Source of the DNA: Earliella scabrosa
Lineage: Eukaryota > Basidiomycota > Agaricomycetes > Polyporales > Polyporaceae
NCBI GenBank assembly: GCA_022605405.1
Contig: JABYQQ010000006.1
Coordinates: forward strand, 1,426,001 to 1,490,000
Length of the DNA: 64,000 nt
Direction of reading: 5' to 3'
Shown here in pieces: positions 6,218 to 62,750 of this stretch (position 1 is the first letter of the stretch; every line of letters begins with the position of its first letter). Below the pieces are notes generated by a model. That model was not told where the DNA came from. It worked only from the letters and a program-made list of their open reading frames with translations, and ran no database searches. Position numbers and translations under genes: made by a program.

Positions 6218-6500
6218 ATGCGCTTCACTCTCTCCACGCTCGCATTTGTATTTGCAGTCGTCGTCTCGGTGGTAAATGGAGGTACGTACCTTTCACCGTG
6301 TTCTAGTAGCGTCAGTTCCCTCTCAAAACTCATACGCGGTATCCTTAGCCCCAACTCAAGGCGACGGACACGAGTTCTGGGCGAACAATGCCCATCAGTC
6401 GGCTGCACGTGCGTCTAGTTTGCTCTTGCGACTTCCATCGTCTGCTTACACTAAAACGTACACCGCTGTAGCTGAGGAGGAGGAGGGAACCCGTGTCTAA
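6218..6500 (+). CDS. Small secreted peptide precursor 1 (FWANNAHQ motif)
   Basis: Predicted exons 6218-6281, 6349-6408 and 6472-6500 encode 50 residues. Introns are GT-AG, 67 and 63 nt, the second with an ACTAA branch site. Residues 1-21 form a signal peptide (MRF start, hydrophobic LAFVFAVVVSVV core, ending NG|AP). The mature part has HEFWANNAHQ and then an acidic tail (EEEEGTRV). Intron 1 falls in phase 1 right after the signal peptide and the middle exon is a multiple of three, the same design as five other genes here. This copy is the most divergent: ANNA replaces the QSGV/KSGA/RSSA core. Function unknown; a secreted peptide or the precursor of a modified peptide is inferred from the UstYa-like neighbours farther along. 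Confidence 0.6.
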
Positions 6501-9536: not shown

Positions 9537-9834
9537 ATGCACTTCACCCTCTACATCCTCGTGCTTGCTCTCGTCGCGACGTGCTCCGTGGTGAACGGCA
9601 GTATGTACCTAGAGAACCAGACAATGTGAGATATCGCTTTGAAGGACTGTTACTGATATATCGCCTTTTGACCCAGCGCCCAACCCAATGCAAAGTAAGC
9701 AGTTCTGGAGAAGTAGCGCGCACGCGACCATCGCGCCCCCCGGTATGCATTCCGAGTCTATGTCAGCGTGTCCACGCATTCATCACGCATTATACAAAAT
9801 TGCTCTAGACGGCAGGGTCGACAGGCCAGTCTGA
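9537..9834 (+). CDS. Small secreted peptide precursor 2 (FWRSSAHA motif)
   Basis: Predicted exons 9537-9600, 9677-9742 and 9809-9834 give 51 residues. The first exon is exactly 64 nt, as in four of the other family members, and encodes a signal peptide (MHFTLYILVLALVATCSVVNG-type core). The second encodes TPNPMQSKQFWRSSAHATIA; the third encodes a short tail ending DRPV. Both introns are phase 1. The core differs from peptide gene 3 (FWRSSAHE) at one residue, so genes 2 and 3 look like a local duplication. No CaaX box, Cys pattern or KR site is present. Function unknown. Confidence 0.6.
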
Positions 9835-10415: not shown

Positions 10416-10681
10416 ATGCAATTCAGCGTCTCCGTCACAGCCATCATATTTGCCGCAATGGTCTCCGCCGTCGCTGGAGGTGCGTACCAGCCAGGGGTCT
10501 GTGTGTCGTGCATGCTGACGTCCACCCTCCCGCTACAGCCCCCTTACCCAAGGATCATGTGAAGGACCAACCGTTCTGGAGAAGTAGCGCGCACGAGCTA
10601 ATCTCGGGTACGTCGTCGTCACCGGCCGCGATCGTGCTTGCCTGACTGACCGATGTGGTGACCATAGAGCACCAGACGTGA
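10416..10681 (+). CDS. Small secreted peptide precursor 3 (FWRSSAHE motif)
   Basis: Predicted exons 10416-10479, 10539-10607 and 10668-10681 give 48 residues. The signal peptide (MQFSVSVTAIIFAAMV..) ends AG|AP. The middle exon encodes APLPKDHVKDQPFWRSSAHE followed by LIS, and the last exon adds only EHQT. Introns are phase 1, and the second has a CTGAC branch site. The gene is convergent with a 7TM gene whose stop codon lies 263 bp downstream. The Lys-rich stretch before the core could be a protease site but is not a canonical KR. Function unknown. Confidence 0.6.
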
Positions 10682-10943: not shown

Positions 10944-12100
10944 TTAGTCATGCATCAACACGTCGCGTCTCTCCGTCATCTCCGCCTGCCCGCCCTCGGG
11001 CGACTCCAAGTCGTTCCTTAGGAACGACTTGGAACCCGTATCCGGATCAAACAGTATGCGCAGCGCGACCATCGTCGGCATAATGCCCTGTCGAGCAAAC
11101 AGTGAACGTCAGCAAGCCAATATAGACCCGAATGCTCGAGAGCAGGGCGATGGCTCGACGCACATAAAGCTGGACCACGACCGCAGCAGCCGCGTCCCTC
11201 GCCGGATGGTCGGCGATCACGAACCCAACCAGCACCACCTGAGCGACAAAGTGGCCCACGCCGCTCTCCTCCGCGATTCTCAGCACTCCGTACTGCTCGA
11301 TCTCGGTCGTAGGCAGGCCACCATCGGGCATGTTCGAGGGTGCGTTGGGTCTTGTCCAGCGAGGAAGGTAGGTCAATAGCGGCTGCGAGAGCTTGGACGC
11401 GATGGTGACAACGATGACGAGGTTCGCGTAAAGCATGAGCAGGTGCCCCATCACGGTCAGCGTTCGGGCCTGTGTGGCGTCGATGGCATGGAATGTCGAG
11501 GTGTGGCGTGCAAGTTCGAGGCATCCTGTGCAAGAGCGCCGTCGAGGATAGGGAAGGGCAGCATTGTCGAAGTTAGTTCGTGTATGCGCGGAAGAACCAG
11601 AACGATATAACACGTACCGAAGGCCATGAGCGTGAATCCGCAGGGGGGAACGATCGTCAGGTAGTTACGCTCCCAGAGCACCCAGCACCGGTGAAAGAGG
11701 ATGAATTGGCCGAGGAGGTTGCACAAGGTGACAACGTTGTAAGCCCCCGGCACTTCATCGATCTGTAGCTGGCATTAGCACACACTGAAGGAAATAGAGG
11801 GTACAGGTTGACGAACTGGGACGTCATGCACAGTGTAAATTCGGTGGAATTCGAGCGCAAGATGGACGGTGCACAGAGCGAAAAGCGATGAGTTTGCTAC
11901 TATGAGAGGGAGAAGAGGCTTGAAAGCATTGTAGCGGCGCCACAGCTGAACGAGGGAGATGGCGAACAAGTTGAAATAAGTGCCTATATCGGATGTTGCA
12001 AACCTCAGCTATATCCCGACACGAAAAGAACAGACGCACCCCACAGTACCGCCTCCAGCACGAATCCGATGAGGACCGCCGCAGGAGTCGGCATCGCCAT
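10944..12100 (-). CDS. Seven-transmembrane protein, Agaricomycete RCW family (7TM-a)
   Basis: Start ATG at 12100 (MAMPTPAAVLIGFVLEAVLWG); stop TAA at 10944-10946. Exons are joined by GT-AG introns, with the first junction in phase 1 inside WG|TYF, as in three other 7TM genes of the window. Recognisable blocks in order: YFNLFAISLVQLW; VANSSLFALCTVHLALEFHRIY; FHRCWVLWERNYLTIV; MLYANLVIVVTIASKL; GHFVAQVVLVGFVI; then GIMPTMVALRILF and a hydrophilic tail. The blocks align one to one with the proteins at 36345, 44163 and 58417, although this copy is the most diverged. The family is uncharacterised; a receptor-like topology is inferred. Convergent with peptide gene 3. Confidence 0.75.
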
Positions 12101-29659: not shown

Positions 29660-29923
29660 GGGTGTAGGTTAGAAGGATGCGTCGTATGAGCCGTTGAGTT
29701 CAGCGATTGAAGTTTCTTCGAGTTGAAGGCAAGGACGAGCGAGCGACAGTACCAGGTCGAGCTTAACGCCCGTCACGTACCAACATGATCCACGTGGCAT
29801 GCCGCGAGCTTGGCAAGCCCACTCCGACGGGAAGGGACAAAGTTGTTGAACGACTGCTCAATACAGCTTCATCTTCACTGCCAGGCTCTGCACACTCCCT
29901 TTCGTCGATTCGTGGACCATACG

Positions 29924-32696: not shown

Positions 32697-32817
32697 GGGT
32701 GTAGGTTAGAAGGATGCGTCGTATGAGCCGTCGACTGGTTCAGCGAAGAGCGATTTGGTGGTAGTGGCGAATTCGAACACACCCCACGTGGCCAACACGT
32801 GGCTTTGCAGTCCATCC

Positions 32818-33155: not shown

Positions 33156-33456
33156 CGGCTCTATGTTATCAGCTCTGACTATACCTTTGCCATTGTTGTA
33201 GTTTGTCAAACCTGAGGCCTGACGCCTGACGCTTAGCATTTACGCTTGAAGCTTGAAGTTTCTTCGAGTTGAAGGCAAGGCGGCAGTGCCACCAGGTCGA
33301 GCTTAACGCCCGTCACATACCAACATGGACTCCACGTGGCATGCCGCAAGCTTGGCAAGCCCAGGGAAGGGACAAAGTTGTTGAACGACCGCTCAATACA
33401 GCTTCATCTTCATTGTCAGGCTCTGCACACTCCCTCGTCGATTCGTGGACCATACG

Positions 33457-35034: not shown

Positions 35035-35337
35035 TCATTGCTTCCCTAACTTGTACAGAGGGTCGGGCCTAGGGAGAGCCCGCGTGTCGACGACGTCCAG
35101 GAGCTCTTCGAGCTGGTGGAATATGCTTCGGAAGGTGGTAGTGGCATACGCCAGCAGGAGCACGTTGGCAAGGAGGAGTGCAAGCGCGCAGGCTAGTGGG
35201 ACGAAGTTCGCTCGAAGGGAGGAGGCGCGGAGCGCAGGCGAGTAGGACTCGGGCAGCAAGGGGTCCTTCGCCTGACTTCCTTCACTGTCAAGGTAGTCAC
35301 CTTGCGGCAAGGGCTTGTACTCGTCGAGTCGTTCCAT
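35035..35337 (-). CDS. Small single-pass membrane protein with DTRxLPRPD motif
   Basis: About 100 residues from the ATG at 35337 (MERLDEYKPLPQGDYLDSEG) to TGA at 35035. A near-perfect intron (GTAAGA donor, TACTAAC branch, TTTTCAG acceptor, about 35345-35401) sits just upstream, in the 5' leader. An acidic, Pro/Leu-containing cytosolic part leads to one strong helix (PLACALALLLANVLLLAY), then a short lumenal or external part ending DTRALPRPDPLYKLGKQ. I do not recognise a named family, though short TM proteins with a D-x-R-x-LPRPD ending occur in Agaricomycetes as far as I recall. It is next to the 7TM/UstYa-like cluster and, like UstYa-type proteins, has its tail outside the membrane. Role unknown. 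Confidence 0.6.
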   Translation of the reverse strand: MERLDEYKPLPQGDYLDSEGSQAKDPLLPESYSPALRASSLRANFVPLACALALLLANVLLLAYATTTFRSIFHQLEELLDVVDTRALPRPDPLYKLGKQ

Positions 35338-36344: not shown

Positions 36345-37694
36345 ATGGTCGCCCTCACGAACGATATCGCGGCTCTGATCGGGTTCGGATGCGAGGCTGT
36401 GTGCTGGGGTATGTATCATTCCAATGTCAATTGCGAGTGTATTGATGAACTGACTGCTTCTGCCGGCCAGGGATCTATCTCGTTCTGTTCCTCATCTCAG
36501 TCGTCCTCCTCGTCCGCCGCCTCAGGACGCACAACACCCATGTAGCCATCCTCATCGCGATTGTCGCTCTCTTCCTGTGCTGCACGGCTCACTTTGCGCT
36601 GGAGTTCAATCATTTCTACACAACATTGGTACGTCAAGTGAATCTTATCTTCACTGTGCTTCCTGGTGCTTCCCTCTCAAATTGCACGCCCTGGGCCTGT
36701 CGGTTGTTGACAGGCAGCAACAGGTGTAGACCGCTTCGCGAACGAGACCAACTCGCTTCTGGGAGCGGACATTCTGATATCTGTCTGCGACCTCCTGGGA
36801 GACTTTATTCTGCTCTACCGCTGTTGGATCGTATGGGAACGCAACTACTGGGTCATCGTCCTCCCCACTCTAACAGCGGTATCGGGATTCGGTGAGTCGA
36901 TTGCTTCCTTCCTGGCCCCTCTCAAGGCCCCCGAGTCGCTTCCCATATGCCACATGCCACATTCCGAGTCTGCCTCTCTTCGCACCCGAACTCACGCTGT
37001 CTCTGCCCAGCATCCATCATCGCGTTCGCGCATATCCTGCTCGTCGTCGACCCAACGTCACCGGTGCCCCCGTCCGCGCTCGTCCCGCTAGGACTGGCCG
37101 GGTACTCGCTCCCGCTCGCGACGAACGTGATGGCGACCGCGCTCATCGTTGTTAAGCTCTGGTGGGTCCTGCGCTCCGCAGCAAAGATCGCCGGAGGCGA
37201 CACGCCCCTGTTCGGCAGCGGGTATAACGCGGTCCGGAACGCGCTCGCCATTGTCATCGAGAGCGGCGCGCTCTATCTTGTCACCCAACTCGTGTTTGTC
37301 ATCGTGTACTCCCTCAAGCACCCTTCGCAGGCTATCCTGGCCGTCATCGCGGTGCAGATATATGTGAGTCAGACCCCTCCTGATTGTCATGCGTGGTACC
37401 GAGCAGAAGAGTTGACGAGGTTGTCGCGTGCAGGGCATCGCGCCGACATTGATCATCATGAGAGTCGCTCTTGGTGTGTCCAGCGAGAGTACGGTCCAGC
37501 AGAGCCCTACAGAGCTGTCCGGACCCAGATGGCACTCCAGGACGGGGAGTTCGAGTGCTATTTCCAGATCGAACAATCCCAGAACACCCCTGCCGAGCAC
37601 CCTCGACGATACATTGAAGTCAGATGGTGGTTCGATGGAGATGATGCGATACATGAGCACCTCCCGAGTCATCCTCGGTGACGAGACGGTGTGA
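36345..37694 (+). CDS. Seven-transmembrane protein, Agaricomycete RCW family (7TM-b)
   Basis: Starts ATG at 36345 (MVALTNDIAALIGFGCEAVCWG); first intron at 36409 in phase 1; later introns near 36632, 36891 and 37364; TGA at 37692. Blocks: IYLVLFLISVVLLVRRL, LFLCCTAHFALEFNHFY, ATGVDRFANETNSLLGADIL, LLYRCWIVWERNYWVIVLP, IIAFAHILLVV, LPLATNVMATALIVVKLWW, ALYLVTQLVFVIVYSLKHP, GIAPTLIIMRVALGVSS, then a Ser-rich cytosolic tail ending DETV. About 330 residues, seven hydrophobic helices. Uncharacterised family; the topology and Ser/Thr tail are compatible with a receptor. The stop codon lies only 81 bp from that of the convergent UstYa-like gene. Confidence 0.8.
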
Positions 37695-37775
37695 TAGTGT
37701 ACAGTAGGATATCTTGGACCCTATCAGGTCGCGAACTGTTCGTAGATACATAAGGAAGCGCATTGAACCCGCGCA

Positions 37776-38449
37776 TCACTGCTCCACAGGACCTGCAGGA
37801 TGCGTATCCATGAAATCCCGCAAGACCGTCCAGTCCTTGCACCGATGCACCATGCCCACCCCGCTCGCCGAGTGCTCCAAGCGGCCATTCAGCAGCCCGG
37901 GGTCGTCCACCTCGAGCGTCGCGTCCGAGTAGCACAGCACCATCTGGCGCAGGTAGCGGAGGCAGTGCTCGATGTGCTCCGCGGCGTTGGTGCGGTTCGT
38001 GACGAAGCCGACGCGGATGACGTCGAGGCAGTGCAGCTGGTGGACCATCGAGACGAGGAACGTGCGGTTGTGCGGCCCGAGCGCGATGAAGCCGTCCCCG
38101 CCCTCTGCGGGGAAGAGCGTCGCCCAGTCGTCGTCGGCAAGCAGCGAGAAGTGCGGCTTGCCGGTTGTTAGCACGAGCCCGGAGGAGGGCAGCTTCAGGG
38201 GGAGCTGGGCGGGGAAGTCGTCCCCGATGTATGCTATAGGCGAGAGACAGGTGTGAGACATACGAGTTGTTGGATGAAGGTCTGACGGCGGGACGTACTG
38301 TATTCATGTACAGGGGGGAGGAGGCCCCGGAGTGCGCTTAGGGTGTAGAACGCGACCCCAAAGTTCAGACATGTGACGAGTGCGAACGCGGCGATTAGGA
38401 CTCGAGTGGGCATGCAGGTCGACGTGGGGTGGGCGGAAGGTGGGGTCAT
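37776..38449 (-). CDS. UstYa-like (DUF3328) protein 1
   Basis: Exons 38299-38449 and 37776-38233; 202 residues. N-terminal TM anchor (VLIAAFALVTCLNFGVAFY) and then LLPPVHEY, a phase-1 intron, and TYIGDDFPAQLP. Both family hallmarks are present: HQLHCLDVIRV and, about 40 residues later, HIEHCLRYLRQMVLC, the paired HxxHC motifs of UstYa-type oxidases (PF11807). A conserved Trp/Asp region (RCKDWTVLRDFMDTHP) ends the protein. In ascomycetes UstYa/UstYb and relatives catalyse oxidative cyclisation of RiPP precursors (ustiloxin, asperipin, phomopsin) or act in cyclochlorotine tailoring. No fault is visible in the reading frame. Convergent with 7TM-b. Confidence 0.85.
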
Positions 38450-39984
38450 GGCGGCATAGACATGGACGCATTATCCTGAGACGGGACTCGCTCCTCGTAA
38501 CAATGGTGTCTAGATCTGTGTATGCGGGGAGTCTGTCAGTCCAGTACACCCAGCCCCCGGAAATTGACGTACAGTCAGGTCGTTCGAGCGGTGCGAGAAG
38601 CACGCTGCTTTTCAATCACGCAGCTCCATGACTCGGAAGACAAGGACGTAGGGATCGTGGGGAGTGCAGGAAAGTCGGAACATGGGGTCATACCCCTGAA
38701 ATGATGGCGTGTCAATGGGTATGATGATGCTTCTGTGAGTTGTTGCAAGTGTCGCACTGGTGGTGGCTCGAGGCGGATGGCATCTCGAGATGCTTCTTGG
38801 GCGCTGCTCTCGCTATTTTTGACCAGGCGTACCGCGCACGGAAGAGCGGCCCACCGGGCGCGCACGTCGGAACCTTTAATGCCGGAAGAGAGCTGTCGGC
38901 ATGTTGAGGGGCGATTTGAGTCCTCGGGTGCCTAACCGTTTAAGGTCTAAGCGGGTGCAGTGTGGATTCCAGTATGGTTGTGTGCAGGGTCTACTGCATC
39001 TCGGTCTCTGTCATCCTGGGACAGCGAGTCGCAAGCTTGCGCGCTACATCCACAGCACAGAAGGCCGTGACATATGCATCAGTAGTGCCCCGAAAGCATT
39101 ATGTTCCACCGCATGATCTCACCAGCAGTTCATACAGTAGGGAACCCGCCGCACGGGAGGCGCTGTGCTGCGGGGTTCATATGAGCTGACCGTAGCGTCC
39201 TAGGTCAGCTTACAACCGTGTATGCGCCTGTACGTACACAATACCGTAGGTGAACGAATATGGGACAATGGAGACGAAAGGTTACTCACCGGACGCCGCT
39301 GTCCCGCCACGTACGTAACTATCGCCGCGAACTGCGCAGATATCGCATCCAGCACCGGATGCTATGTCGGCCTCGTACGATGATATGATGCGTTCACAGC
39401 TTTTCGCGCAAATGCGGCGCCATATCGGACAGATGTAGGAGACCGATACTGCGTTGAGACCAGATCGCCGATTACGACCGAAGCCGTGTCCTGGAACAAT
39501 ATGTACGAGTGAATATATGGCGTTGTGGACGGATTTACACATACAGTCAGGGCATGCCCCGTATAAGCATCGCATTCCTTTGTGAAGCCCGCATATAGGT
39601 AGCTCTGGCCGACTGGATTTCATAGATGACCGCTGATCGCACCTGTTCATGGAGATGTCGGGCGCCGATGGCGCAGTCAGTCCGTGAGGAGCCGGGGCAC
39701 TTAAAGAGTGCTAGCGACACACCTGCATTCCTCGCAAGTAAGGCTGTCCTTGTACATCATTGTATGCGAAACGATGAATAACCGAGGACCCTCACTGGCA
39801 ACTGTCCCATGCCGGAAGTACCATGCCCATGGCGTTGCTCTACCTGTGCGCATGCCAGAAGGAGTCACGGCGACATGCTGTCTGACAGAAGTGCCAGCAT
39901 CATCATGAACTGGAACAGATCGCGCACCTGAAGAGCTCCGCACTCTGGCCCCATGCGAGACGTTCGGGTGCTCTCGGCCCGTCA
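38450..39984. other. Intergenic between UstYa-like 1 and peptide gene 4
   Basis: No gene recognised. CATGCTGT (39874) and TGCCAGCA (39892) precede the peptide gene, with the same spacing as upstream of peptide gene 1. Confidence 0.4.
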
Positions 39985-39992
39985 TATATAAG
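39985..39992 (+). promoter_or_regulatory. TATA box (TATATAAG) of peptide gene 4
   Basis: TATATAAG 75 bp upstream of the ATG at 40060. Confidence 0.6.
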
Positions 39993-40059
39993 ACTGGGAG
40001 GGTTCGGGTCTGCCGTGGCGGCCAGCATTCCAGCTACTGCCAACCTCTTGAGCAACATT

Positions 40060-40472
40060 ATGCGTTTGTCTATCTCTCTCGTTGCGCTCGTCTTCGCTGC
40101 AACAGCGGTGAGTGGAGGTGAGCTTAGGAAAATGTAGCATCTACGAACCTGGACTCTAGACTCATGTCTATCTTCCCATCAGTTCCCATCATCGGCCGAG
40201 CTGAGGGAGCGCTATGGAAGAGTGGGGCCCACCAAGTAGTGTCCGATGGTACGTTGCATCCATGGCTGGTCGCCACTCGCCGTCACGACTCCTGACGTGT
40301 GCTGACGTACATCTGTGCATTGTAGAACCCGCGACGGACAAGATCGCCGCTCGGGCTGAAGGAGCGTTGTGGAAGAGCGGTGCGCACCAGACAGTCTCGG
40401 ACTCGGGTAGGTTCACATAGCCCGTAAGAATGACACCATTAGATTGACCTTTTGGCAGAGGCCAAGGAGTAA
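40060..40472 (+). CDS. Small secreted peptide precursor 4, two LWKSGAHQ repeats
   Basis: Predicted exons 40060-40117, 40183-40248, 40326-40406 and 40459-40472; 72 residues. Signal peptide (MRLSISLVALVFAATAVSGG). Exon 2 encodes RAEGALWKSGAHQVVS and exon 3 ARAEGALWKSGAHQTVS, thirteen identical residues in each. Exons 2 and 3 are both multiples of three and flanked by phase-1 introns, so one arose by exon duplication. The tail is EAKE. If the last intron is not removed the protein would end GRFT instead. Arg precedes both cores (GR-AEG, AR-AEG), a possible processing site though not KR. Faces peptide gene 5 on the other strand. Confidence 0.65.
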
Positions 40473-41121
40473 CTTCGACCTCGACAACTCGGCTGGCGCC
40501 GCTTGACTCGGAGTAGCATGTATGTATATATCTGGTTCTTGTAGAGCCGCAGCATGTAGCATGGTTTCTCAGTTTATGTTTAGGCTATGATAGTCCTGTA
40601 ACTCACCATTTCTTGTGTGATACACGCGTACGGTTGTACTTGGTCAACCGTCATGGAAGTTAGCCGCCCAATCTCGACCTAACGGCATCTGCCGCGCCAC
40701 GTGGTGGACCAAGCACACGTCAGGTCTCGACCGTCTCGTCCACGACTCTCTCAAACCTCAGGCCTCAGCCTTCGAATAGCTTCGAATGCCAATTCAAGGC
40801 TCATGCCAGGCTTCAACTTGGGACTGACATGGGAAGGTATGACGCTTTCATTGGTTGAGTCCGCGCATAATCAGGAGTCACGTAGTGTCGATGTGGCAGG
40901 TTGGAACCCTAACTGTATGCAACTCGTCTCGAACATGCACCGTCTATCAGTGTCACATAGTTCATCAAGCGCATCTGAAGACTGGTATACGATTATTGCC
41001 CTGTACCGACAGCAGGCTCTGTACAGACAAAGCTCTAGACGCCCTGCAGGCAACCCCTGAACTGTTTCTTCGTTAAGACGAACTCTCCAAGACAATGATA
41101 CGATGGTCACGGTGGTCTCGT
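40473..41121. other. Spacer at the centre of the mirror-image cluster
   Basis: No gene recognised. The midpoints of the flanking mirrored gene pairs all fall at about 40.8-40.9 kb, inside this spacer. Confidence 0.4.
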
Positions 41122-41572
41122 TCAGCTAACGGTATCAGCCTTCTTCTCGTCTGCAGCGACGAGCCGTCAGCGACTCTGACGAGGCTCGTTGACGGTTGAC
41201 GTACCAGAGATGACCTGGTGCACTCCGCTCTGCCAGAACTCGCCCTCCTTCCTGGCCGCAAGGCTCAGTGTTGCAGACGGAGCATTGGCACTGGCAGGAA
41301 CCGAGTCTGTTTCACGAGTTCGTCAGTTAACCCATTGGTGCGTCTATCTGCATGACGATGCGAATCACTTACCTGAAATGACCTGATGCAAGCCGCTCTG
41401 CCAGAACGCCCCTTCCTTCCTGGCGACGTGGCCTTTAGGTGCGGGTGCTGCCAGTGATACGTGTCAGTGACCGGTTCCCTCAAGTTGCCCTCGTCGTGCA
41501 TCGCTGACCTCCGTGTACCGCAGAAACCACCGCAGCGAAGACGATTGCAAGCGTTGACAGGGCGAAGTGCAT
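41122..41572 (-). CDS. Small secreted peptide precursor 5, two FWQSG(L/V)HQVIS repeats
   Basis: Predicted exons 41509-41572, 41373-41447, 41205-41306 and 41122-41150; 89 residues. Signal peptide starts MHFALSTLAIVFAAVV and ends HG|AP. Exon 2 gives ARKEGAFWQSGLHQVIS and exon 3 gives AARKEGEFWQSGVHQVIS; the tail is DEKKADTVS. All introns are phase 1, and donors and acceptors are canonical (GTAAGT, GTACGT, GTCAGC; CAG). The RK before each core is the nearest thing to a dibasic site in the family. Peptide genes 4 and 5 are the only two-repeat members and lie tail to tail, between two UstYa-like genes. Confidence 0.7.
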
Positions 41573-41650
41573 GGTTGGAGCAGTGCCGCAGGTGCGTACT
41601 AAGTTCTAAATCCCTGGGTGGTTTCGTTGACGAACTCACATACTCCTCAG

Positions 41651-41658
41651 CTCTTATA
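41651..41658 (-). promoter_or_regulatory. TATA box (TATAAGAG) of peptide gene 5
   Basis: On the minus strand TATAAGAG ends 79 bp before the ATG at 41572. Confidence 0.55.
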
Positions 41659-41849
41659 CGGGGGCACGAGAACCAACCGATACTGTTCAGGCTCTCTCCG
41701 ATGATCAGTGGGGCAAAACCCGGGGCTGACCGTCTCTCTGAAAACGCCGCGTCTTCAGACCTTCCCAGATGTATGTCGGCGGTGCAGGCATAATAGCGTC
41801 CGCGCCGTGTTCCCGTCTGACCGGGATCTTGTGAGAATTCAGGCTCTGT

Positions 41850-43180
41850 ATCATCTCTCAACAACTGATGCATACGCCCAGATGACGCAGAAGCGCACGG
41901 AACAACGTGTATCCATCTCTACATCAGGGTCTGGCGTGGACTCCGGATACCACACCTCACAGCATTCGCAAGTGCGGTATTCCGTGTCAATACCTTGCTT
42001 CGCACTAAGGGACACGAGTGTTGTAAGTGTCGCACAACTACACTGATACGCCCATGCCGCAGCGGAACAAGCTTCTTCATTCATGCCAACATCTGCCCTT
42101 CGCCCTTGTTATGTCACAGCGCGCTTCGATCAGCTCATCGCGATCGGTAACACACTGACAGCGCCGCGCTGCGTACTCCCATCGGGCGATTCAAGGTCAT
42201 GGCGGAAGGACACACACGTACAGGTCAGCCTGAGGCTATACGGGGAAGAACAACGATTCACGGGACTCCCAGAACACCGAACGCCTCCGGATCCTCTTCT
42301 GGTACGTCACGTCTCTCCAGCAGTATCACTGCCGTCGACTCTGCTGCCAGACGGGACGCTCGAGGCTCATCATGTATTCGTGTCTATTCTTAGCACGCCT
42401 CTATCGCCCACTTCACTCCAATCACCGCTCGAGAATGGCGGTGTATCGCTGGCAATTCGGAATAACGAAAGTGTCGGCATGAGATTCTGCTCGTGCTCCG
42501 GTGTCATCCTGGGAACTGGATGAGAGCATACTATCAAGGGTGAGTCACATGTACATTCAAGTTCGTGCTCAGCCATAGTAAGTAGCCGAAGGATTGGCGG
42601 TGATTACAGAGTGCTCCAAGTGGAAACGAGCTCAGCAAGTTCACTTCATGCCTTTCCCTCTTGCACGAAAAGTGGAGTGTCACTTCGCCCCGGATTTACC
42701 TCACATTGTGGATCCAGGCATGCACTACGAGGTAAGCGCTCAGCGCTCGTACCAATCGTTATGGGCTCTTCTTCATTCGCCCGTCTATCAGCGCTCGGCA
42801 CAGGTCTGAGGCCAGAGCGAACTCGAACTCTCCGAGTAACCCACATACCAGATATCAATCTTCCTCAAGAAGTGGTGCCGCAAACGTAGCGAGATGAGCA
42901 TCGGAGGCGAGTGGAATACTGCGGGAGTGGATTCTTCCAGGGGCATCATTCCGTTTGAAGCTCAGGCCTCTCACCACTCACCGCGTTCGTACAGATGCGT
43001 GCCTCCTTGATGAGGAAGTGCAGCCTGCGCTCGAACAGGACTATGTCTTCGATGTCGCTGATACCGCCCAAGAAGCTGCTCCAATCAGTCTAGTTGCTAT
43101 ACTCTCCGAGATATCCTGGGTAGGTCGACCGGTGACCGCGGACGCGCCGTATCCTCTTCGTCCACGAGAGCACAATCTCA
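41850..43180 (+). other. Possible unrecognised multi-exon gene or remnant
   Basis: Several plus-strand open segments are bounded by plausible splice sites: one ending ALRDTSV at GTAAGT (42017); one from CGGAACAAG (about 42062) with YVTARFDQLIAIGN and, continuing, VQVSLRLYGEEQRFTGL; one from 42607 with WKRAQQVHFMPFPLARKVEC and DLPHIVDPGMHYE ending at GTAAGC (42732). The amino-acid texture (beta-rich, Pro/Asp turns) looks coding and vaguely arrestin-like, but I cannot find a start, stop and domain I trust. It may be decayed. Confidence 0.3.
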
Positions 43181-43246
43181 TCGTAGGCTGGGATACTTCC
43201 CCCGTCCGTACGTCGTCGCGTCTTACAGCCCTCCTTCCACGCCGCG

Positions 43247-43925
43247 ATGTTTCTTGCCACCGCACGCTCCAGAGACTCCCTCTCTGTGCGCATCTTGCTA
43301 GTGGCGCTCACAATCGTCACAGCGTCGCATATTGCGACCGTATTCTACACCCGGAGTGCGCTTCGGGCCCTCCTCCCTCCAGAGCACGAGTACAGTAAGC
43401 GGCCACTGATCTCTCCACCCAAGCATCCCTGACCCCTCTCTTCCAGCCTACATCGGGGACGACTACCCCGCCCAGCTCCCGATCAAGCTCCCGCCCGCCG
43501 GGCTCGTGCTCACCACCGGGCGGCCGCACTACTCGCTCCTCGCCGACGACGACTGGGGCACGCTCTTCCCGCCGGGCGGGAACGGCTTCGTCGACATCGG
43601 GCCCACGAACCGCACCTTCTCGGTCTCGATGGTGCACCAGCTGCACTGTCTGGACGTCATCCGCGTCAGCTTCGTGACGAACCGCACGGGCGCGTACGAG
43701 CACGTCGAGCACTGTTTGCGCTATATGCGCCAGACGGTGCTCTGCCACGCGGACACGACGCTCGAGGCGGACGAGCCGATGCGCGTGAACGGCGTGTGGG
43801 AGCACGCCGCGGATGGTCTGGGGTCTGTGCATCGGTGCAGGGACTGGACCGTCCTCCGGGACTTTATGGACGCGCACCCGCCGGGAGAGGTGAAGATGAG
43901 CGAGAGGATTGAGGCCGAGGCGTAG
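43247..43925 (+). CDS. UstYa-like (DUF3328) protein 2
   Basis: Exons 43247-43394 and 43447-43925; 208 residues. TM anchor ILLVALTIVTASHIATVFY, then ALRALLPPEHEY, a phase-1 intron at the same place as in copy 1, and TYIGDDYPAQLPIKLPPAG. Motifs HQLHCLDVIRVSF and HVEHCLRYMRQTVLC provide the two HxxHC metal or catalytic motifs; RCRDWTVLRDFMDAHPPG follows. This is the closest relative of copy 1, in mirrored orientation. An upstream open frame (from 42955) is not joined because the Met at 43247 directly precedes the TM segment as in the family. Convergent with 7TM-c. Confidence 0.85.
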
Positions 43926-44162
43926 CTGGCTGCCGCGGCGTGTCCTACGTCGGCGGCGGGTCGTGTAATCGCGGGCTGCCCGGAATAGTAGCACTCGCTC
44001 TCGCGCTGTCTCGTGACGTCAATGCATCCGGATGAGAAGGCAGCGACAGCGAGTATCCCGCAAGATAAGGCAAGGAAGAATGTGCTTTCGAACCCACAAA
44101 ACCCCGATGACCCAGGACGGTGACTACAATACATACAAACATGACTTTGCACGTGCAGCACA

Positions 44163-45484
44163 TCAGACTGCCTCGCCTCGCGAAGTCGCGAGGTCTACGC
44201 CCTTCATCTCGATGGACTCTCTGTCCGAGCCCGACCCGGAGCCCGTCTGCGTCGCGTCTGCCGGGCGCCGCAGCTGCATGACCGTCCCCGGTTTGGCGTT
44301 CGTCGAGACCGAGGTGGTGCCCGTGCCGGTCGTGTCCGCGAAGGAGCGGAACCGAAGACCAGAGACGACGTTCTGCGAGTGCGGCACGGTGCTGTCAAAG
44401 CTTGACACTCCGAGGGCGACACGCATGATGATGAGCGTCGGCGCGATGCCCTGCACATTCAAGTCCCACGCGACGTCAGCGAGCGTTCAATCTCAACCGT
44501 GCCATGCTGCCCCCGACGAGCGGCGCGGAGACTCACATAAACCTGGACGGCGATCGTGGTCTGGATCGCGAGCGCGGGGTGGTTGATGGCGTAGAGAACG
44601 ACAAAGACGAGCTGGGTGATGAGGTAGAGCACGCCGCTCTCGACGATGATCTCCGCCGCGTGCCGCACCGCGCCGTACCCGCTCGTGAAGATCGGCGCGG
44701 ACTCGCCGACGGCCACGATGGGCACGCGGATCATCCACAAGAGTTTCCCCACAATCAGTCCGGTGGCCATGACGTTCGTCGTGAGCGGGAGCGCGTAGCT
44801 CGCGAGCCCGAGAGGGATCAGCTCGGGTGGGGGCAGGGGCGCGGTTGGGGAGAGCGTGAGCACCAGGTGCGCGACTTCGCCGACGCATGCTGAGTTGCGT
44901 GCGCGGGGATGGATTCGATGAGTGGGAGCCTCCCTTGCTTTTGATGGACGATCACTCACCGAAACCTGCGACTGCTGTCAGGGTAGGAAGGACAACAACC
45001 CAGTATTTTCTCTCCCAGACGATCCAGCAGCGGTAGATGAGGATGAAGTCGCCGAGCAGATCGCACACCGAGAGGAGAATGTCCCCGCCAAGAAGCGCAG
45101 AAGTCTCGTCGGCGAAGCCCTCGACGCCAGTAGAGCCCTGGCGCAGTCTATTCAGGAAGCCGAGCGCGAGATGGAGAAGAAGCCTCCGAGGTGGACGTAC
45201 CAAGACGGTGTAGAAGTGGTTGAACTCTATCGCAAAGTGGGTCGTGCAGCACAGGAAGAGTGCGCACATGAGGGCGACGATGGGGCCATGCGCCGGATTG
45301 CTCTTCTGGGTTTGGGTGCGTCGGATGAGCAAGAAGACGGTGGAGACGAAGAGGACGACGTAGATGCCTGTTGCGAGGTCAGAATGAGCTGTGAGGGTAC
45401 TAGTAGCATGTTGGACGGGTGCGTACCCCAGCAGACGGCTTCACAGGCAAAACCGATCAGCGCGTAGATGTCATTGCTGAGCAT
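44163..45484 (-). CDS. Seven-transmembrane protein, Agaricomycete RCW family (7TM-c)
   Basis: Starts ATG at 45484 (MLSNDIYALIGFACEAVCWG). Blocks: ALFLCCTTHFAIEFNHFY, ATGVEGFADETSALLGGDIL, IYRCWIVWERKYWVVVLP, LPLTTNVMATGLIVGKLLW, GVLYLITQLVFVVLYAINHP, GIAPTLIIMRVALGVSS, then a Ser/Thr-rich tail ending SRGEAV. Intron positions match 7TM-b, including the phase-1 junction after the first helix start. The GIAPTLIIMRVALGVSS block is identical to 7TM-b over 17 residues, although the tails have diverged. Convergent with UstYa-like 2, 237 bp apart. Confidence 0.8.
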
Positions 45485-47018: not shown

Positions 47019-49518
47019 ATGTCCGGGTCATTAACGGCGCCTGTAGCAACACTTCTCGTCGCCTTCCTTCTGTGGAAGCTTGTCGCGAGGCGTCTCCGTC
47101 CTTCGCAGTACTCCCTGGCGAAAGTTGCTGGGCCAAGGAAGGAGCACTGGCTGACGGGTGCGTGGGCTTGTTTGATTGGCTGGAAAGGGTCTGACAGGTG
47201 GGCCTTGCGCTTGAAGGGAACTTGCATCGGCTCTTCAACGACGGATGGGACTACAAGTTTGACTTGCTCGCCAAGTTTGGCGGTGTCATAAAGATCTACG
47301 GCATGCTGGGGGTAGGTCGTCTTGTTTCTTCACAGCGCGTCCGACTCGTCACAGAGATTATACTCACAACCTACGCTAGGCGGAGCAGCTACTCGTCTCA
47401 GATCCCAGAGCTCTACACCACATTGTTGTCAAAGAGCAAGATGTGTACCTCGAGACCGACATGTTCGTCATGTGCGTCCTGTCACGGAACTTTGTACGGA
47501 ACCCCGGATTACGCTAACCGGCTTCTTCAGGACAAATAAGTTGCTCTTCGGCGAAGGGCTCATATCCACGCTGGGTCTGTGAATCTCGGTCATTCGCTTG
47601 AAGCCACTCATGCTGAATTTAGCCCCATACACTCACTAGGGGAACAGCACAGAAAACAGCGCAAGATGCTCAACCCGGTGTTCTCCCTTGCGAACATGCG
47701 CTCCCTACTTCCCACCATCCAGCCGATCGCCGACAAGCTCCTAGAGCGCCTGCGCAGCGAGCTTCCCAAAGACGGCAGTAAGTGCCTGCTTTCTTTACGC
47801 GACGAGTCGTGCATCCATTGAGCTTGACTGTGAGCATAGGCGCCAGAGAGATCGACATCCTCCCTTGGATGACTGCTGGAACGCTCCAATACGTCAGCAC
47901 GGCGGTCATGGGCATCACCATCGACACCATGGACCGCACCAAGAAGAACGAGTACGCGGACGCGCTCCGGGCGATCAAGTGCGCCAGCCCTATGCCATAC
48001 TTCCATCTATGCCAGTGTATGCGCTGACTGCCGGTTTCCAGTCCTGCGGCGTTCAAGGTGCTCCTCCTGCGCCCCTTTGTGCCCATGGTCGTACGCAACC
48101 TCTCGCCGTACTGGCGGAACAAGCTGGTCGACTGGCTCCCGTTCCCGGCGCTGCGCGAGTTGCGCGACATCTCCAATATCTTGGAGAGGGCTGCGAAGGA
48201 GATCATACAGACGAAGAAGGCCGAGATGGAGCGGGGAGGAGAGAGCGCGTCGGACAGCCAGCGACGGGACTTGATGACCATCATGCGTGCGCACGCCGTA
48301 TCGTCTGTACTCACATGCGCGCATATACTGATACATCTCGTTAGTGAGAGCCAACATGTCAACGTCTGAGAAGGACCGGCTCACCGAGGACGAGCTCATC
48401 GGGCAGATCAAGTACGTACTCGCCTGACAAACGCACATCTTACGCTCACGCCCTCGTCCTCGCAGCACACTCCTCTTCGGCGGGCAAGAGACGACGACGT
48501 CCGCGCTCGCGCGCATGCTCTACATCCTCGCGCGCGAGCCCGCCGCCCAAGCGCGGCTCCGCACCGAAATCCGACGCGCACAGCAAGACCACGCCGCGGC
48601 GCACGGCTCCTCCGCCGCTCGCGCCCCCTCGAGCCTCCCGTACGACGTGCTCGTCGGCCTCCCGTACCTCGACGCGGTCGTCCGCGAGACGCTGCGCGTG
48701 CACCCGCCGACGAGCATGCTGAACCGCACCTGCACGCAGGACGCGGTCCTGCCCTTGGAGTTCCCCGTGCGCGCGACGACGGGCGAGGAGGTGCGCGCGG
48801 TGCACGTGCCCAAGGGGACGAACGTCGTCATGTCCCTCCTCGGCGCGAACCATAACAGGGAGGTGTGGGGCGAGGACGCGTCGGTGTGGCGCCCGGAGCG
48901 GTGGCTGAATGCGCAGGGGGAGCGGATCGGGCAGGGGAGGAGCGCGGATCTTGCGTTTGGGGACTACGAGCTGGGCGTTGAGCAGGGCGGGGAAGGGACG
49001 CCTGGGTGCAGGAATGGGGTCAAGTATCCCGGCGTGTATGCGTCCATGTGAGTGAGGACTCCGGCGCGCTGCATCGTCGTCTCCTGCACGAGACTGATCC
49101 AATTAATGGCATTCGGATAGGATGACGTTCCTCGGTGGCGGACGGGCATGCATGTAAGTGCCATCGTACATGGGAGCTCCTTTTACTAACGCGTCGCTGA
49201 CGTACGATCCTCAGAGGCTTCAAGTTCGCGGAAATGGAGATCAGTACGTCTTTCCTCCCCCTTCCTTGACCTCCTCCGAATCCGAACGGCACTGACCCAC
49301 GGTCCGGCGTCGCAGAGCAAGTCCTCGCGACGCTCGTGCCCGCGCTGCACTTCGCGCTCCCGTCCGCGGTGGACGCGTACGGCGTGCGGAAGGAGATCTA
49401 CTGGAGGATGGACGGGCTGCAGTTCCCCGTCGTGCGCCCGCCTCATGGAGACGGGAAGACCCATCTGGTGCCGTTGGATATACGGCCGGTCCGGGAGACG
49501 GACTTCTTGCCTATGTGA
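47019..49518 (+). CDS. Cytochrome P450 monooxygenase
   Basis: Starts ATG at 47019 with a membrane anchor (TAPVATLLVAFLLWKLV); TGA at 49516. About ten exons joined by GT-AG introns. Motifs: GFGVIKIYG-type beta-1 region (GGVIKIYGMLG), AEQLLVSDPRALHHIV, C-helix HRKQRKMLNPVFS, I-helix GGQETTTSALARM (usual A/G-G-x-D/E-T-T), ExxR as ETLRVHPP, PERW, and haem loop FLGGGRACIGFKFAEMEI with the Cys ligand. The C-terminus is normal. Intact class II ER-anchored P450; substrate unknown. It lies between peptide genes 5 and 6 and could be a tailoring enzyme, but P450s are also scattered widely in Agaricomycetes. Confidence 0.9.
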
Positions 49519-50482: not shown

Positions 50483-50739
50483 ATGCGTTTCTCGCTCACC
50501 CTGCTCGCGGTCATGCTCGTTGCATTCGCATCTACTATCAACGCTAGTGAGTGCTCATTCCAAGATATGCAGAGGTCGAAGGGAACTCACCTTGCGCTTC
50601 TAGCACCTACCAAGTTCTGGCAGAGCGGCGTGCACCAAAAAGTCTCAGGTGTGCTCATAGTACCGACCCGCGCATCCATTACTAATGACTCTATGCAGTA
50701 GATGAGCTCGAGGAGACTAAGCCGGGAAGCGCTGCATGA
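50483..50739 (+). CDS. Small secreted peptide precursor 6 (FWQSGVHQ motif)
   Basis: Predicted exons 50483-50546, 50604-50648 and 50699-50739; 49 residues. Signal peptide starts MRFSLTLLAVMLVAFAST and ends INA. The middle exon, the shortest of the family at 45 nt, encodes TPTKFWQSGVHQKVS almost alone; the tail is DELEETKPGSAA, acidic as in gene 1. Phase-1 introns with GTGAGT and GTGTGC donors; an ACTAATGAC branch site precedes the second acceptor. FWQSGVHQ is identical to the second repeat of gene 5. It lies between the P450 and kinase-like F. Confidence 0.65.
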
Positions 50740-55455: not shown

Positions 55456-56989
55456 AGCACACCTTTCGACCACCCCTCTTTAGACCCTATATCCGTCCGT
55501 ATTTATTTACATCCTTTCTTGCTATTTGCGCGGTCTCTTCGGTTACTTCTGTGGTTGGTCGTTCTTCGGGTAGAGGACCCAGACGTTTCACGGGTATTTG
55601 GTGCGTGACCCGTTCGAGTCCCGAATGAACCTGACTGACTTGGATGCACGCACGATCGATCCACAGGTGTCGCAGAACCGCAGGCGGTGCTCAGGCATCT
55701 ATACATTTCGCGTACTAGAGTATCATACACGCTATAATTGGATTTGGACAGACATGTTCAAGGTGATGATGCTTGAGGCCTAAGGCTGGACTCGGATTCA
55801 GGTGACCGTTAATCACGAGCGTAGATTTGCTCACGCTTTTCTAGCCGCATTCACTGCGTCGGTTTGGGCTTGCATCCGGGATTCTCCCAACCTGTGGCAC
55901 GTCAGAGACCGCGCAACGCGGGAGGGATTTGGCGGACGACATACCAGCAATACGCTGGTGTGCGCAGCCTCTCCACAGCATGCCTCGGTCGGGGGCTGTT
56001 CACAAGTCTTGGTGAGTGCCCCTGCGGTCCTATAAGCTGCTCAGTCGCTTACCTGACGTTTGGGCAACAGGCAAGCCTGTAGTTCCGGCGAGGAAGAATA
56101 TGAGTATGAGTGCGATGACGGAGCGCATGCTGAGTGCTGCGGGGATAGCGACGCCTGCTCAGTGCTTTGAGCCCCCTCATGATATGGAGTCTCGTCCGCT
56201 GGCTGCACACACTCCGACTTGATTGACGGACTTGACACTGACAGGACGCAAGCTCGAGCAGGCTGGTCTCATGCGCAATGGCACTGGGAGTACGGCCAAT
56301 CGACTCAAATCCGTACGTCTCGCTCGCTTCTTCGGTGCTTCAGCTGCTCTCACTGACCTCGTACTGCGCGCATGCGCGCATCCGCCACCAGGGTCAGCAC
56401 GAGGCGCGACTCGAGTTACGCAGTAATGCGTCGCCCAAATCCGCTCGTGAGCATGACGCAACAGCCTCGTTGCGGCTCGCACCGGCTCTGCCGGCTCTCT
56501 AGTATGGCGCGCTTCGATTCATCGCTGAGTGAGTCGAATAATTGACGCTCTACGACTTCTAGTTGCGATCCTGCACAAGGAACACTGAGGATACCCTATA
56601 CCCGCCTCATCGACTTCCCAAAGTTGCTCCTGCCTCGTGCCGACCTAGACCGCGGCCATACACGGGTTCCATGCGCTTCGTACGACTCGCTCTGTCTACC
56701 CTCGCAGAGCACTCCGTGTCGCATCCCTCTTCGCGACACTCGTCTTGCTACACCAAGGAAAGGGACCCCGCAACGAATACACGTTCCCGACCATCCCCCT
56801 CGCGAACATGCTGAGCGCATTGAGTCTGAACCTTGGCGCGTCTCGGGGCCGCTCGACATCCCGATGCGGAACGTCCCCTCAAGGACTTGCAGATCCAATC
56901 TTATTCGCGCCCTACCCCCGCCGACTCCGTACTTCAATCTGCAGCGCACTCGTCTCTGAGCAGCGGTAGGCATCACTCAAAGTCCCAGC
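55456..56989. other. Intergenic; nothing recognised
   Basis: About 1.5 kb. An ATG at 56671 starts MRFVRLALSTLAEHS, superficially like the peptide genes, but lacks a hydrophobic core and the FW motif. Confidence 0.4.
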
Positions 56990-57918
56990 ATGACCACTCC
57001 CGCCAACACCAACGCCAAGACCGACGCCGACGCCGACGCACGGGAGCGCGCAGAGGCCACAAGGCTCATGCGGCTGATGCACGACATCGGACTGGGCCCC
57101 TACATCAGCTCCGAGTCGTCCGACGAGCCGCTCCACCGTACTTGCAACGTCGCCCGCTGCGTACGCGTGTCGGTCGCACTCATGACCGCCTTCGCGCTGG
57201 TCGGCCTCGCAGTCGTGTTGGTGCTCTTCACCGCGCCCTCCGAGCCGCACGAGTACAGTGAGTATCTTGCCAGTGATGCATGCATGCGCCGTGCTACAGT
57301 GCCCTTTCTCTGGGACTGACCCCTTCCTGTCTTGCAGCATACGTCGGCTCCGACTACCCCGCGCGCCTGCCCGTCTCGTTCCCCACCACGACGCTCGTCC
57401 TCCAGCCAGACGGCCCGCGCTTCGGGCTGGACGCCGACGACGACTGGGGCGCGCTCTTCCCCTCCTCGGACGGGTTCGTCGACCTCCCCCTCCCCTCCCT
57501 CCCTTCCGAGTCCTCCCAGCCCTCCCAACCCTCTCGCGTCTCCCCCACGTCTCCCGCGCCCCCCGCCGCGCCGTCGCCTTCACCGACCCCGCGCACCTTC
57601 CTCGTCTCCGTCGTGCACCAGCTGCACTGCCTCGACGTCTTCCGCGTCGGCTTCGCGACGAACCGGACGGGCTACGCGCGCCACGTCGCGCACTGCCTGC
57701 GGTACATGCTCCAGATCGTGCTCTGCAACGCAGACACGACGCTCGAGATTGACGAGCCGCAGATGGCTGTGGCGGACGGGGGTGGCGGGGGCGGGGGCGG
57801 GGGCGGGTGGCAGCATGCGGCGGGCGGGGTGGGGTCGGTGCGCGAGTGTCGTGATTGGGAGGCGCTGAAGGGATGGTTGGAGGAGCACCCTGCGGGGCCG
57901 GTGAGGATGTCGGGGTAG
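56990..57918 (+). CDS. UstYa-like (DUF3328) protein 3, with low-complexity insertions
   Basis: Exons 56990-57257 and 57338-57918; 282 residues, longer than copies 1 and 2 (202 and 208). A longer hydrophilic N-terminus (TNAKTDADADARERAEATRL) precedes the TM anchor (VALMTAFALVGLAVVLVLF). The EPHEY|TYVGSDYPARLP junction has the same phase-1 intron. HQLHCLDVFRVGF and HVAHCLRYMLQIVLC preserve both HxxHC motifs. Two insertions are unique: a Ser/Pro-rich loop before the first motif (57485-57597) and a polyglycine tract of about ten residues (57778-57812). A final RECRDWEALKGWLEEHPAGP matches the others. Convergent with 7TM-d. Confidence 0.85.
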
Positions 57919-58416: not shown

Positions 58417-59746
58417 TCACACCGCAACGGCGACAAACGGCCCATCCCCATGCAAGTCCAGCGACTTCATCTCCAGATAGTCCTCGTCCAGATCAATCGT
58501 GCGCCCGCTCTCCTCCGTCTCGCGGCCCATCGAGTGCAGCGCGGGGAGGAACGGCGGGCGCGCCGCGGTGAGGTCCGAGTCGATCGTGGCCGGGGTCAAG
58601 CGCGAGTGCGAGTGCCTGTTTTGTGCCGTCTTCCGCACGACGGGCGTGGCGTGGTCGCTCGTGATGCCGAGCGCGACGCGGATGACGATGAGCGTCGGTG
58701 CGATGCCCTGTCAATGTCCGGTGCCACCATGGTGCATCAGCAACCGTCCCGCCCTCACAGCGCCGAGTAGGAGGAGGTAAGAGGCAGCGAAGGACTCACA
58801 TAGACCTGCACGGCGATAACGGCAAGGATCGCCTGCGCGGGATGCCCGAGCGCAAAGAGCGCGACAAATACGAGCTGCGTCGCGAGGTAGAGCAGCCCGC
58901 TCTCGACAATGATCGCGACAGCGCGCTGCGCCGCGCGCACGGTACCCCGCATGCGCGTCCCCACGCGCTGCTCCGCGCCGCGCGCGGTGAGCCAGAGCCG
59001 CACGACAATGAGTGCAGTCGCCATCGCGTTCGTCGCGAGCGGAAGCACGTAGCCCGCGGTGCCGAGCGGGACGATCGCCGCAGGCGGGACGGGCGCGGTG
59101 GGCGTGAGGGAGAGGACGAAGTGCGCGACGACCACGATGCACGCTGTTGGGCCCGCGTGAGAGGTGAGAGGGCGTGCGGGATGCGGAGAGTATTGAGGGG
59201 CAGATGGTGTGAGGAGATGTACTCACCGAAGCCGGCGAGAGCGGTCAGGAGCGGGAGGATGATGACCAGGGTGTTCTTGCCCCAGATGACCCAGCAACGA
59301 TAGACGAGGATGAGGCCGGCGAGGAGGTCGCTGACAGAGATGAGGATGTCTGCGCCGATGAGCTTTTCCGTCTCGTTCGCAAAGTGCTCCACGCCGGTCG
59401 CGCGCTGTCGGGTGTCAGTTGAGATGGGGAGCGCGCATCGTCGAGCTGCTCACCAGTGTCATGTAGAAGTGGTCGAACTCGAGCGCAAAGTGCGCCGTGC
59501 ATGAGGCAAAGAGCAAGAAATTCGCGACGAAGATGGGCGCGTTGAGACTTTGCGTCCTGGCTCTACTGAGGAGCAGCACGACGGACGCTGTGAACAACAC
59601 AACATAGGTGCCTAATATACCACACGGCCCGTTCAACGAGAGTGCTGTGAGCATATGCATCCATCATAAGATGCAAAACACGTACCCCAGAGTGCCGCTT
59701 CACATGCAAACCCGACCAGGGCCGAGAGGTCGTTAGAGAGGGCCAT
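58417..59746 (-). CDS. Seven-transmembrane protein, Agaricomycete RCW family (7TM-d)
   Basis: Starts ATG at 59746 (MALSNDLSALVGFACEAALWG). Blocks: TYVVLFTASVVLLLSRARTQ, LLFASCTAHFALEFDHFYMT, RATGVEHFANETEKLIGADI, LVYRCWVIWGKNTLVIILP, LPLATNAMATALIVVRLWL, GLLYLATQLVFVALFALGHP, GIAPTLIVIRVALGITS; the hydrophilic tail ends VAVAV. Intron positions match 7TM-b and -c. It is more distant from b and c than they are from each other, which parallels UstYa-like 3 versus 1 and 2. A decayed sister copy lies at 62460-62750. Confidence 0.8.
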
Positions 59747-61868: not shown

Positions 61869-62424
61869 CTCATTGTGTTGAAGCGTATGGAAAGTCCTTC
61901 TCCTTCTTGGAGCTGCACATCAAAGGTCCATGAGTCAATCTGCGGTAGTGGGATATGAGAGGACTCGGAGGAGCGCGAGCTCACCTGAAGGATGGTCATC
62001 GCTACTACGGTGTAGAGTATTTCTCGTTCGCGCGATAGCGCCGCGTCGTTGCCGTCCTTGTTGAGCATGCGCTTGAGACGGAATCGGGTCTGTACGAGCT
62101 GCACGACGCGACCGATGGCATTGTTCAAACGACTGTCGTGGAGAGAAGCGGATTGAGACGGCTTGTTCGGCCAAACGGTAGCACGTTTCGGTGGCATTGA
62201 GATCTTCGCCGTCCATGTTCTCCTTCGCAGCGTAAAGCTCGTCTATAGCTGACTGTACGAATGCCTCGAGCTCCTTGCAGCCCTTGTGGGTGTTCCTGGC
62301 CGTCCGCACATTCACCCCCCACTGGCATCATGAGTACAGGTCTAGATCTGATCCACTGTGAAACGCTCGCACTCACTTCAATGCGTTCGACAATCTTCGC
62401 AGTGCCAGGCTCCACTGTGTCCAT
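61850..62424 (-). pseudogene. Decayed helical-domain gene copy 1 (MLKL/HeLo-like)
   Basis: Minus-strand pieces read GTAKIVERIE, GCKELEAFVQSAIDELYAAK, LNNAIGRVVQLVQTRFRLKR and MLNKDGNDAALSREREILYT, parallel to copy 2 at 63310-64000. One acceptor is lost (GTGCGG where copy 2 has GTGCAG) and the intron after YRLAEQ has lost its donor, so the gene cannot splice as copy 2 does. The KRFLNKxxxDAALARERE-type helix is what I associate with MLKL/HeLo-like N-terminal domains of fungal NLR and kinase proteins; that identification is moderate at best. Its upstream end runs into a decayed 7TM gene. Confidence 0.5.
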
Positions 62425-62459
62425 CTGTAGACTGGGTACAGAGGAGCCAATTGAGTCAC

Positions 62460-62750
62460 CATGGTCATGTAGAAGTACTAGTTGAACTCGAGCACGACGC
62501 GAATAGCAGGAGGTTGGCGATGAATACTACTGATGGGCGCGTAAAGACTCTGCGTCCGGGCCCGACGGAACAGCAGCACAACAGATGCTGCAAACAACAC
62601 GAAATATGTGTCTGTAATAGTGCGCCAGAGCTCCGTGAGCGTCTTGTTCAACTGCAACTGTGAGATGCGGCCAACATACGTGCCACAAGCGAACCCGACC
62701 AAGGCCAGTGCCAAGAGGTTATATGAGTCATATGACTGGGAGAGGGCCAT
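62460..62750 (-). pseudogene. Decayed 7TM gene (RCW family, 7TM-e)
   Basis: Starts at 62750 with MALSQSYDSYNLLALALVGF and continues TYFVLFAASVVLLFRRARTQ, matching the first two helices of 7TM-d. The next block is damaged: small indels disrupt the ANFLLFASCTAHFALEF region, a TAG follows, and the homology stops at about 62460, where the helical-domain fragment begins. The first splice junction is also out of phase compared with the intact copies. Confidence 0.7.

Follow-up and report, generated by a model that had tools for sequence, protein, structure and literature searches.

Among the described systems closest to the locus analyzed here are the dikaritin (UstY) pathways for ribosomally synthesized and post-translationally modified peptides (RiPPs), such as those of ustiloxin, phomopsin and asperipin-2a, in which a secretory precursor adjoins a gene for a DUF3328 protein with two HXXHC motifs (PMC12048977). 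This pair of motifs has been used by others to recognize RiPP-related DUF3328 proteins (PMC12048977), UstY enzymes are reported to cross-link side chains at a dicopper site (PMC12186524), and Tyr serves as a cross-link donor in dikaritin cores (PMC9233826). Our subject is a mirrored cluster of six genes in the wood-decaying polypore Earliella scabrosa (genome of 51.7 Mb in 48 contigs), each half of which comprises genes for a UstYa (DUF3328) protein, a small precursor peptide and a seven-transmembrane (7TM) protein. It lies in a stretch of 64,000 nucleotides, hereafter the window (C6:1426001-1490000, forward strand), which was analyzed together with the flanks C6:1366001-1426000 and C6:1490001-1550000 (184 kb in all; window coordinates become negative leftwards).

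Unlike the dikaritins, the eight precursors found in this region have Trp and His in their cores but lack Tyr beyond residue 20 (8/8), six of the eight carry a single core, and a 7TM gene belongs to the unit; no peptidase or tyrosinase was seen beside the units, though no search was aimed at either. Small secreted cores, sometimes repeated, are also typical of the KEX2-processed repeat proteins (KEPs) of Basidiomycota, but the precursors described here lack canonical KR/RR Kex2 sites flanking their cores, mostly contain one core, and show dibasic pairs (RK or KK by sequence) in peptide 5 only. Some KEP peptides have been speculated to be sensed by unknown G protein-coupled receptors (GPCRs) (Le Marquer et al. 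2019, PMC6339444), and a DUF3328 gene was reported near 103 of 1680 (6.1%) Basidiomycota KEPs (Umemura 2020, PMC7329392). Another likeness is to the yeast alpha-factor and its class D GPCR Ste2, a peptide ligand and a 7TM receptor, the two roles that the precursor and the 7TM protein would play here. All eight precursors have x-P directly after the presumed signal peptide, as in STE13-trimmed pheromones; x-P in this position is also frequent in other secreted fungal proteins. A limited literature search found no published account of such a unit, which does not establish its absence from print, and the unit may represent an undescribed peptide-signaling system.

Our preferred reading, held with somewhat more belief than doubt, is that the mirror consists of two opposite-facing copies of a unit present four times, and that this unit would provide a secreted, UstYa-oxidized peptide together with its own receptor.

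The repeated unit and its components

The sequence-only reading of this DNA had proposed the order and strands 7TM(+), UstYa(-), peptide 4(+), peptide 5(-), UstYa(+), 7TM(-), symmetric about 40.8-40.9 kb. Spliced gene models give the same arrangement, and the NCBI models largely do so too: those of 7TM-b, UstYa-1 and peptide 4 are identical to ours, and that of peptide 5 differs only at the 3' end, where the last intron is read through (P0216, 92 aa). Comparison of the two halves revealed eight collinear inverted blocks between 36354-38389 and 43304-45481 (57-306 nt each, 70-84% identity), and matches between the two halves are confined to gene stretches, excluding the UstYa-peptide intergenic DNA (blastn, E-value 0.01). 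An assembly foldback at 40.8 kb, which had been named as a possible refutation of the mirror, is ruled out because arms with 70-84% identity are too diverged; the mirror is an old duplication.

The unit 7TM> <UstYa peptide> is present four times within 84 kb of contig C6 (units A to D, Table 1; the mirror is formed by B and C), and the gene models give the same internal order for all four complete copies. UstYa profile matches on C6 fall, among other places, at C6:1403377-1403631 and at window 57.6 kb, and the 7TM protein of unit C used as a query retrieved further 7TM copies on this contig. Since the unit recurs in A and D with the same internal order, the earlier idea that the three genes act together has become more plausible.

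All four UstYa copies match the profile PF11807 (UstYa/DUF3328). On the long exon of units B and C the E-values are 4.8e-16 and 1.1e-20, and the scores of 59.7 and 74.9 bits compare with a curated cut-off of 25. Two HXXHC motifs are found in the UstYa protein of all four units and in 56/56 aligned relatives. The predicted UstYa model (predicted local distance difference test score 84.7) has an N-terminal helix; comparison with solved structures by sequence and by fold gave no useful match among the entries listed.

The eight precursors share a common anatomy, in which phase-1 introns separate a signal-peptide-like exon from a core exon and the core exon from a short tail. Each core exon has an invariant Trp followed five residues on by an invariant His (W-x4-H). 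The claim that peptides 4 and 5 are the sole members with two cores holds among the eight precursors in 184 kb. The precursor finder reported eight places in these 184 kb, namely those eight precursors, while in 80 kb around the 15 other genomic UstYa matches its two patterns gave 0 and 1 hits, and the reversed sequence gave one; a stricter form gave 7 (184 kb), 0 and 0. Because the peptides were already known when the finder was built, these figures measure its specificity and do not amount to independent discovery. A genome-wide pattern scan found 16 places, five of them in this cluster, and a reversed control pattern found five. The element TATAA[AG] occurs 65-130 nt upstream of seven of the eight precursor starts (background 2.4%, p 4e-11, for a feature chosen post hoc), and is present at 0/4 UstYa and 1/6 7TM genes; no shared regulatory word of 7-10 letters upstream of 18 genes was significant given the number tested.

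The AlphaFold2 model of the unit B 7TM protein has seven long helices in a GPCR or rhodopsin arrangement and a short eighth helix. Among the solved folds listed, the nearest appears to be that of Ste2, ranked at the top by two aligners (E-value 1.9e-3, TM-score ~0.5, root-mean-square deviation 4.0), with other 7TM folds close behind. In contrast to this structural likeness, hhalign of the 7TM protein against Ste2 gave a probability of 4%, and among 62 members no Pfam family was matched at E-value 0.01, including PF02116 (0/62); with the threshold raised to 10 in 10 relatives, the best PF02116 E-value was 1.4, in one member. A further difference from Ste2 is the UstYa gene in the unit. DUF6534, a family of basidiomycete 7TM proteins, was matched weakly by three of 10 relatives scanned (E-values 0.037-0.085, below the curated cut-off), and none of the 46 listed genome matches to it falls in this cluster. 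The STE3/mating-type B loci resemble this one in having multiple ligand and receptor genes per locus. Since all 23 genome matches to STE3 lie on contigs C22 and C20 and none on C6, the single Homeobox_KN match is on contig C36, and the STE2 profile found no match above its cut-off across the genome, the cluster is evidently not a mating-type locus.

Searches of the protein database found 104 relatives of the 7TM protein and 110 of UstYa. Among NCBI-named contigs of at least 10 kb, 61 genomes had the former, 43 the latter and 29 both (treating strains of one species as separate and related species as independent, with printed length used to match contigs). The two genes share a contig in 25 of these 29 genomes, or in 24/28 when E. 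scabrosa is left out, with ~1.3 expected at random for genomes assumed to be 45 Mb long. The four genomes without sharing are those of Lentinus brumalis, Polyporus arcularius, Phanerochaete sordida and Trametes elegans; in Ganoderma sinense the two homologs are adjacent (GSI_14644 and GSI_14645). The linked genomes belong to Polyporales, Boletales, Russulales and Gloeophyllales. As the UstYa-7TM pair, the unit looks like the conserved entity.

Proposed function and its rivals

Most likely the unit encodes a secreted peptide modified by UstYa, together with the receptor for it. What the analysis shows is the repetition of the unit, its order, the anatomy of the precursors, the catalytic motifs and the linkage of enzyme and 7TM genes in other species; secretion, modification, receptor function and the pairing of ligand with receptor are inferred. 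The precursor, whose first exon resembles a signal peptide, would enter the secretory pathway, where membrane-anchored UstYa could oxidize or cross-link the W-x4-H core, probably at Trp and His, because these are its only invariant residues. Proteases would then release the core for secretion, and the linked GPCR-like 7TM protein, whose predicted fold appears nearest to Ste2, could sense it. Several units, each with its own core and a diverged receptor, might thereby provide parallel ligand-receptor channels. The protein database search found no precursor homologs in other species; small intron-rich genes of this kind often go unannotated, but conservation of the peptide member outside E. scabrosa is unproven.

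The main rival is a dikaritin-like RiPP locus for defense or toxicity, in which the UstYa-modified peptide would act as antibiotic or antifeedant while the 7TM protein would be an accessory for self-protection, transport or sensing rather than a signal receptor. Most of the UstY products known are mycotoxins (PMC12048977, PMC9233826), and two 7TM relatives (P0047 and P0051) bear the record name "RTA1 like", but RTA1 was not matched in Pfam by any of the 62 members at 0.01. Likewise, a cytochrome P450 present at 48.4-49.05 kb would suit such a locus, yet it lies outside every unit. That every complete unit pairs a single UstYa with a single 7TM, and that the linkage is kept across orders, fits a ligand-receptor pair better; we therefore regard a defense locus as unlikely. 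It is far less credible, and in our opinion very improbable, that the linkage is a by-product of frequent regional duplication and that peptide, UstYa and 7TM protein do not act together. The region does contain other local duplicates (open reading frames (ORFs) at 28.6-34.2 kb and 51.3-52.2 kb, and an inverted pair of 93.4% identity beside 7TM-E), and some peptides and one 7TM gene are solitary; such a by-product would, however, hardly leave UstYa and 7TM on one contig in 24/28 other genomes, from several orders, nor the same gene order in A-C and in the older-diverged D.

The unit brings a candidate substrate, its enzyme and a candidate receptor together as neighbors, and as its four copies differ in their cores, ligand-receptor pairing can be tested directly in yeast. 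In mushroom-forming fungi UstYa genes are frequent and their substrates largely unknown, and the large sets of uncharacterized 7TM proteins of these fungi lack ligands; if true, the proposal would amount to a modified-peptide signal whose receptor is genetically linked to it. In Pleurotus, six of 16 UstYa-like genes are reported to be developmentally expressed (PMC8893723). A bolder version, which we offer tentatively and regard as doubtful, is that mushroom-forming fungi possess multi-channel signaling outside the mating-type loci, in which W-x4-H peptides with a Trp-His cross-link made by copper-dependent UstYa would be pheromone-like ligands of a Ste2-like receptor family absent from Pfam, with ligand, enzyme and receptor multiplied and diversified as one unit.

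Ancestry of the mirrored halves

That the mirrored 7TM and UstYa genes are each other's closest relatives is correct inside the window, where units B and C are 64% identical in the 7TM protein and 69% in UstYa, compared with 50-54% and 45% for B or C versus D; genome-wide it fails, as unit A is nearer to C in the trees. These comprised 47 rows for 7TM (42 selected from 104 hits and five of our own), 48 for UstYa (44 of 110 hits and four own) and 14 for both proteins jointly (10 outside pairs and the four own units). The 7TM tree places A, C and E in one clade with B outside it (100/97), and a B+C grouping is rejected (P-value of the approximately unbiased test, p-AU, 0.0084). The joint tree has A and C as sisters (99/98) and rejects B+C (p-AU 0.0023; A+B 0.0048). 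A and C are again sisters in the UstYa tree (98/90), where B+C is disfavored yet not rejected (p-AU 0.086). The peptides differ in part from this picture: 4 does pair with 5 (core identity 53-67%), which leaves the earlier proposal some support, A with 1, and 2 with 3. Unit D is an older lineage, which in the 7TM and UstYa trees falls among proteins from Ganoderma, Daedaleopsis, Dichomitus and other fungi, those next to its 7TM protein including Fomes and Lentinus.

Units B and C thus appear to be two members of a repeated unit in opposite orientation, with B outside the A+C pair, and not products of each other, since C is sister to A, B+C is rejected in the joint and 7TM trees and a fourth gene, for a small membrane protein, is common to A and B. 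Of the inverted duplication of a three-gene unit proposed earlier, the duplication and the inverted halves survive; the view that a single inversion at 40.8 kb generated B and C from one another is disfavored, unless gene conversion rewrote the record. A single local inverted duplication, later hidden by conversion between A and C, would account for B and C being neighbors and for peptides 4 and 5 being similar and the only two-core precursors, but we find it quite improbable, as C is placed with A in three trees, B and C show no match in their intergenic DNA, and peptide 6, at 53-60%, is almost as similar to peptide 5 as peptide 4 is. The shared double core also loses force: the cores within each of the two genes are 93% and 87% identical, more than between the genes, and the core exon sits between two phase-1 introns, so that its doubling keeps the frame. 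The double core may therefore have arisen by exon duplication twice, independently.

Loose copies and neighboring genes

Table 1. Features of the E. scabrosa cluster, in window coordinates unless preceded by C6
Feature	Position	Strand	Remarks
7TM receptor-like protein, unit B (7TM-b)	36345..37694	+	five exons, 337 aa; spliced model identical to NCBI P0001
UstYa (DUF3328) oxidase-like protein, unit B (UstYa-1)	37776..38413	-	two exons, 190 aa; identical to NCBI P0106
Precursor peptide 4, unit B	40060..40472	+	signal peptide, two RAEGALWKSGAHQ(V/T)VSD cores, four exons; identical to NCBI P0215, 72 aa; TATAAG at -73
Precursor peptide 5, unit C	41122..41572	-	signal peptide, two RKEG(A/E)FWQSG(L/V)HQVISD cores, four exons; TATAAG at -86
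UstYa (DUF3328) oxidase-like protein, unit C	43247..43925	+	gene model; PF11807; two HXXHC
7TM receptor-like protein, unit C	44163..45484	-	gene model; 104 homologs in protein database
Unit A	C6:1401633-1405467	+	left of window, ~57 kb left of unit B
Unit D	59746-55851	-	gene models
Precursor peptide, unit D	55851..56128	-	core GMLWRGCAHQ; precursor finder; no TATAA[AG] within 150 nt
UstYa-like protein, unit D	57068..57918	+	profile match and gene model; two HXXHC
7TM receptor-like protein, unit D	58417..59746	-	gene model
Decayed 7TM fragment, unit D type	62367..62648	-	
Precursor peptide 1	6218..6500	+	core EFWANNAHQ; precursor finder
Precursor peptide 2	9537..9834	+	core QFWRSSAHA; precursor finder
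Precursor peptide 3	10416..10681	+	core PFWRSSAHE; precursor finder
More distant 7TM protein (7TM-a)	10950..12100	-	adjoins peptides 2 and 3; tblastn E-value ~1e-13 to unit C 7TM; 3' end provisional
Precursor peptide 6	50483..50739	+	core KFWQSGVHQKVS; lacks an adjacent 7TM or UstYa gene of its own
Fifth 7TM protein (7TM-E)	76202-77473		beyond window; stands alone
Small single-pass membrane protein	35035..35337	-	100 aa; divergent neighbor of unit B 7TM

The stretch 6218-12100, with its three single-core precursors and distant 7TM gene and without a UstYa gene (tblastn), is a variant arrangement of the unit. Beside 7TM-E, neither a UstYa gene (tblastn at E-value 1) nor a peptide (precursor finder) was found; it adjoins a young inverted duplication (C6:1503756-1508732, window coordinate 77756-82732) with arms of 1.9 kb that are 93.4% identical and encode small Cys-rich proteins that begin with a signal-like stretch. 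The small membrane gene has two matches genome-wide, beside units A and B, and no third copy; the search of Pfam at E-value 10 returned no credible match for it.

An HMG-box protein is encoded at 53676-55256, adjoining unit D, and an HMG-like ORF to the left of unit A is weakly similar to it (37% over 83 aa); these proteins are possible regulators of the units, or their proximity may be due to chance. The cytochrome P450 exon is located at 48428-49051, between units C and D. Paralogous ORFs form two divergent pairs at 28590-34222, 87-88% identical in tandem, with additional copies at 51305-52216 and at window coordinate 105.3 kb; three of them were scanned against Pfam at 0.001 without a match. 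A tandem array with a 27-base period occupies 1440-2206, within a long open frame.

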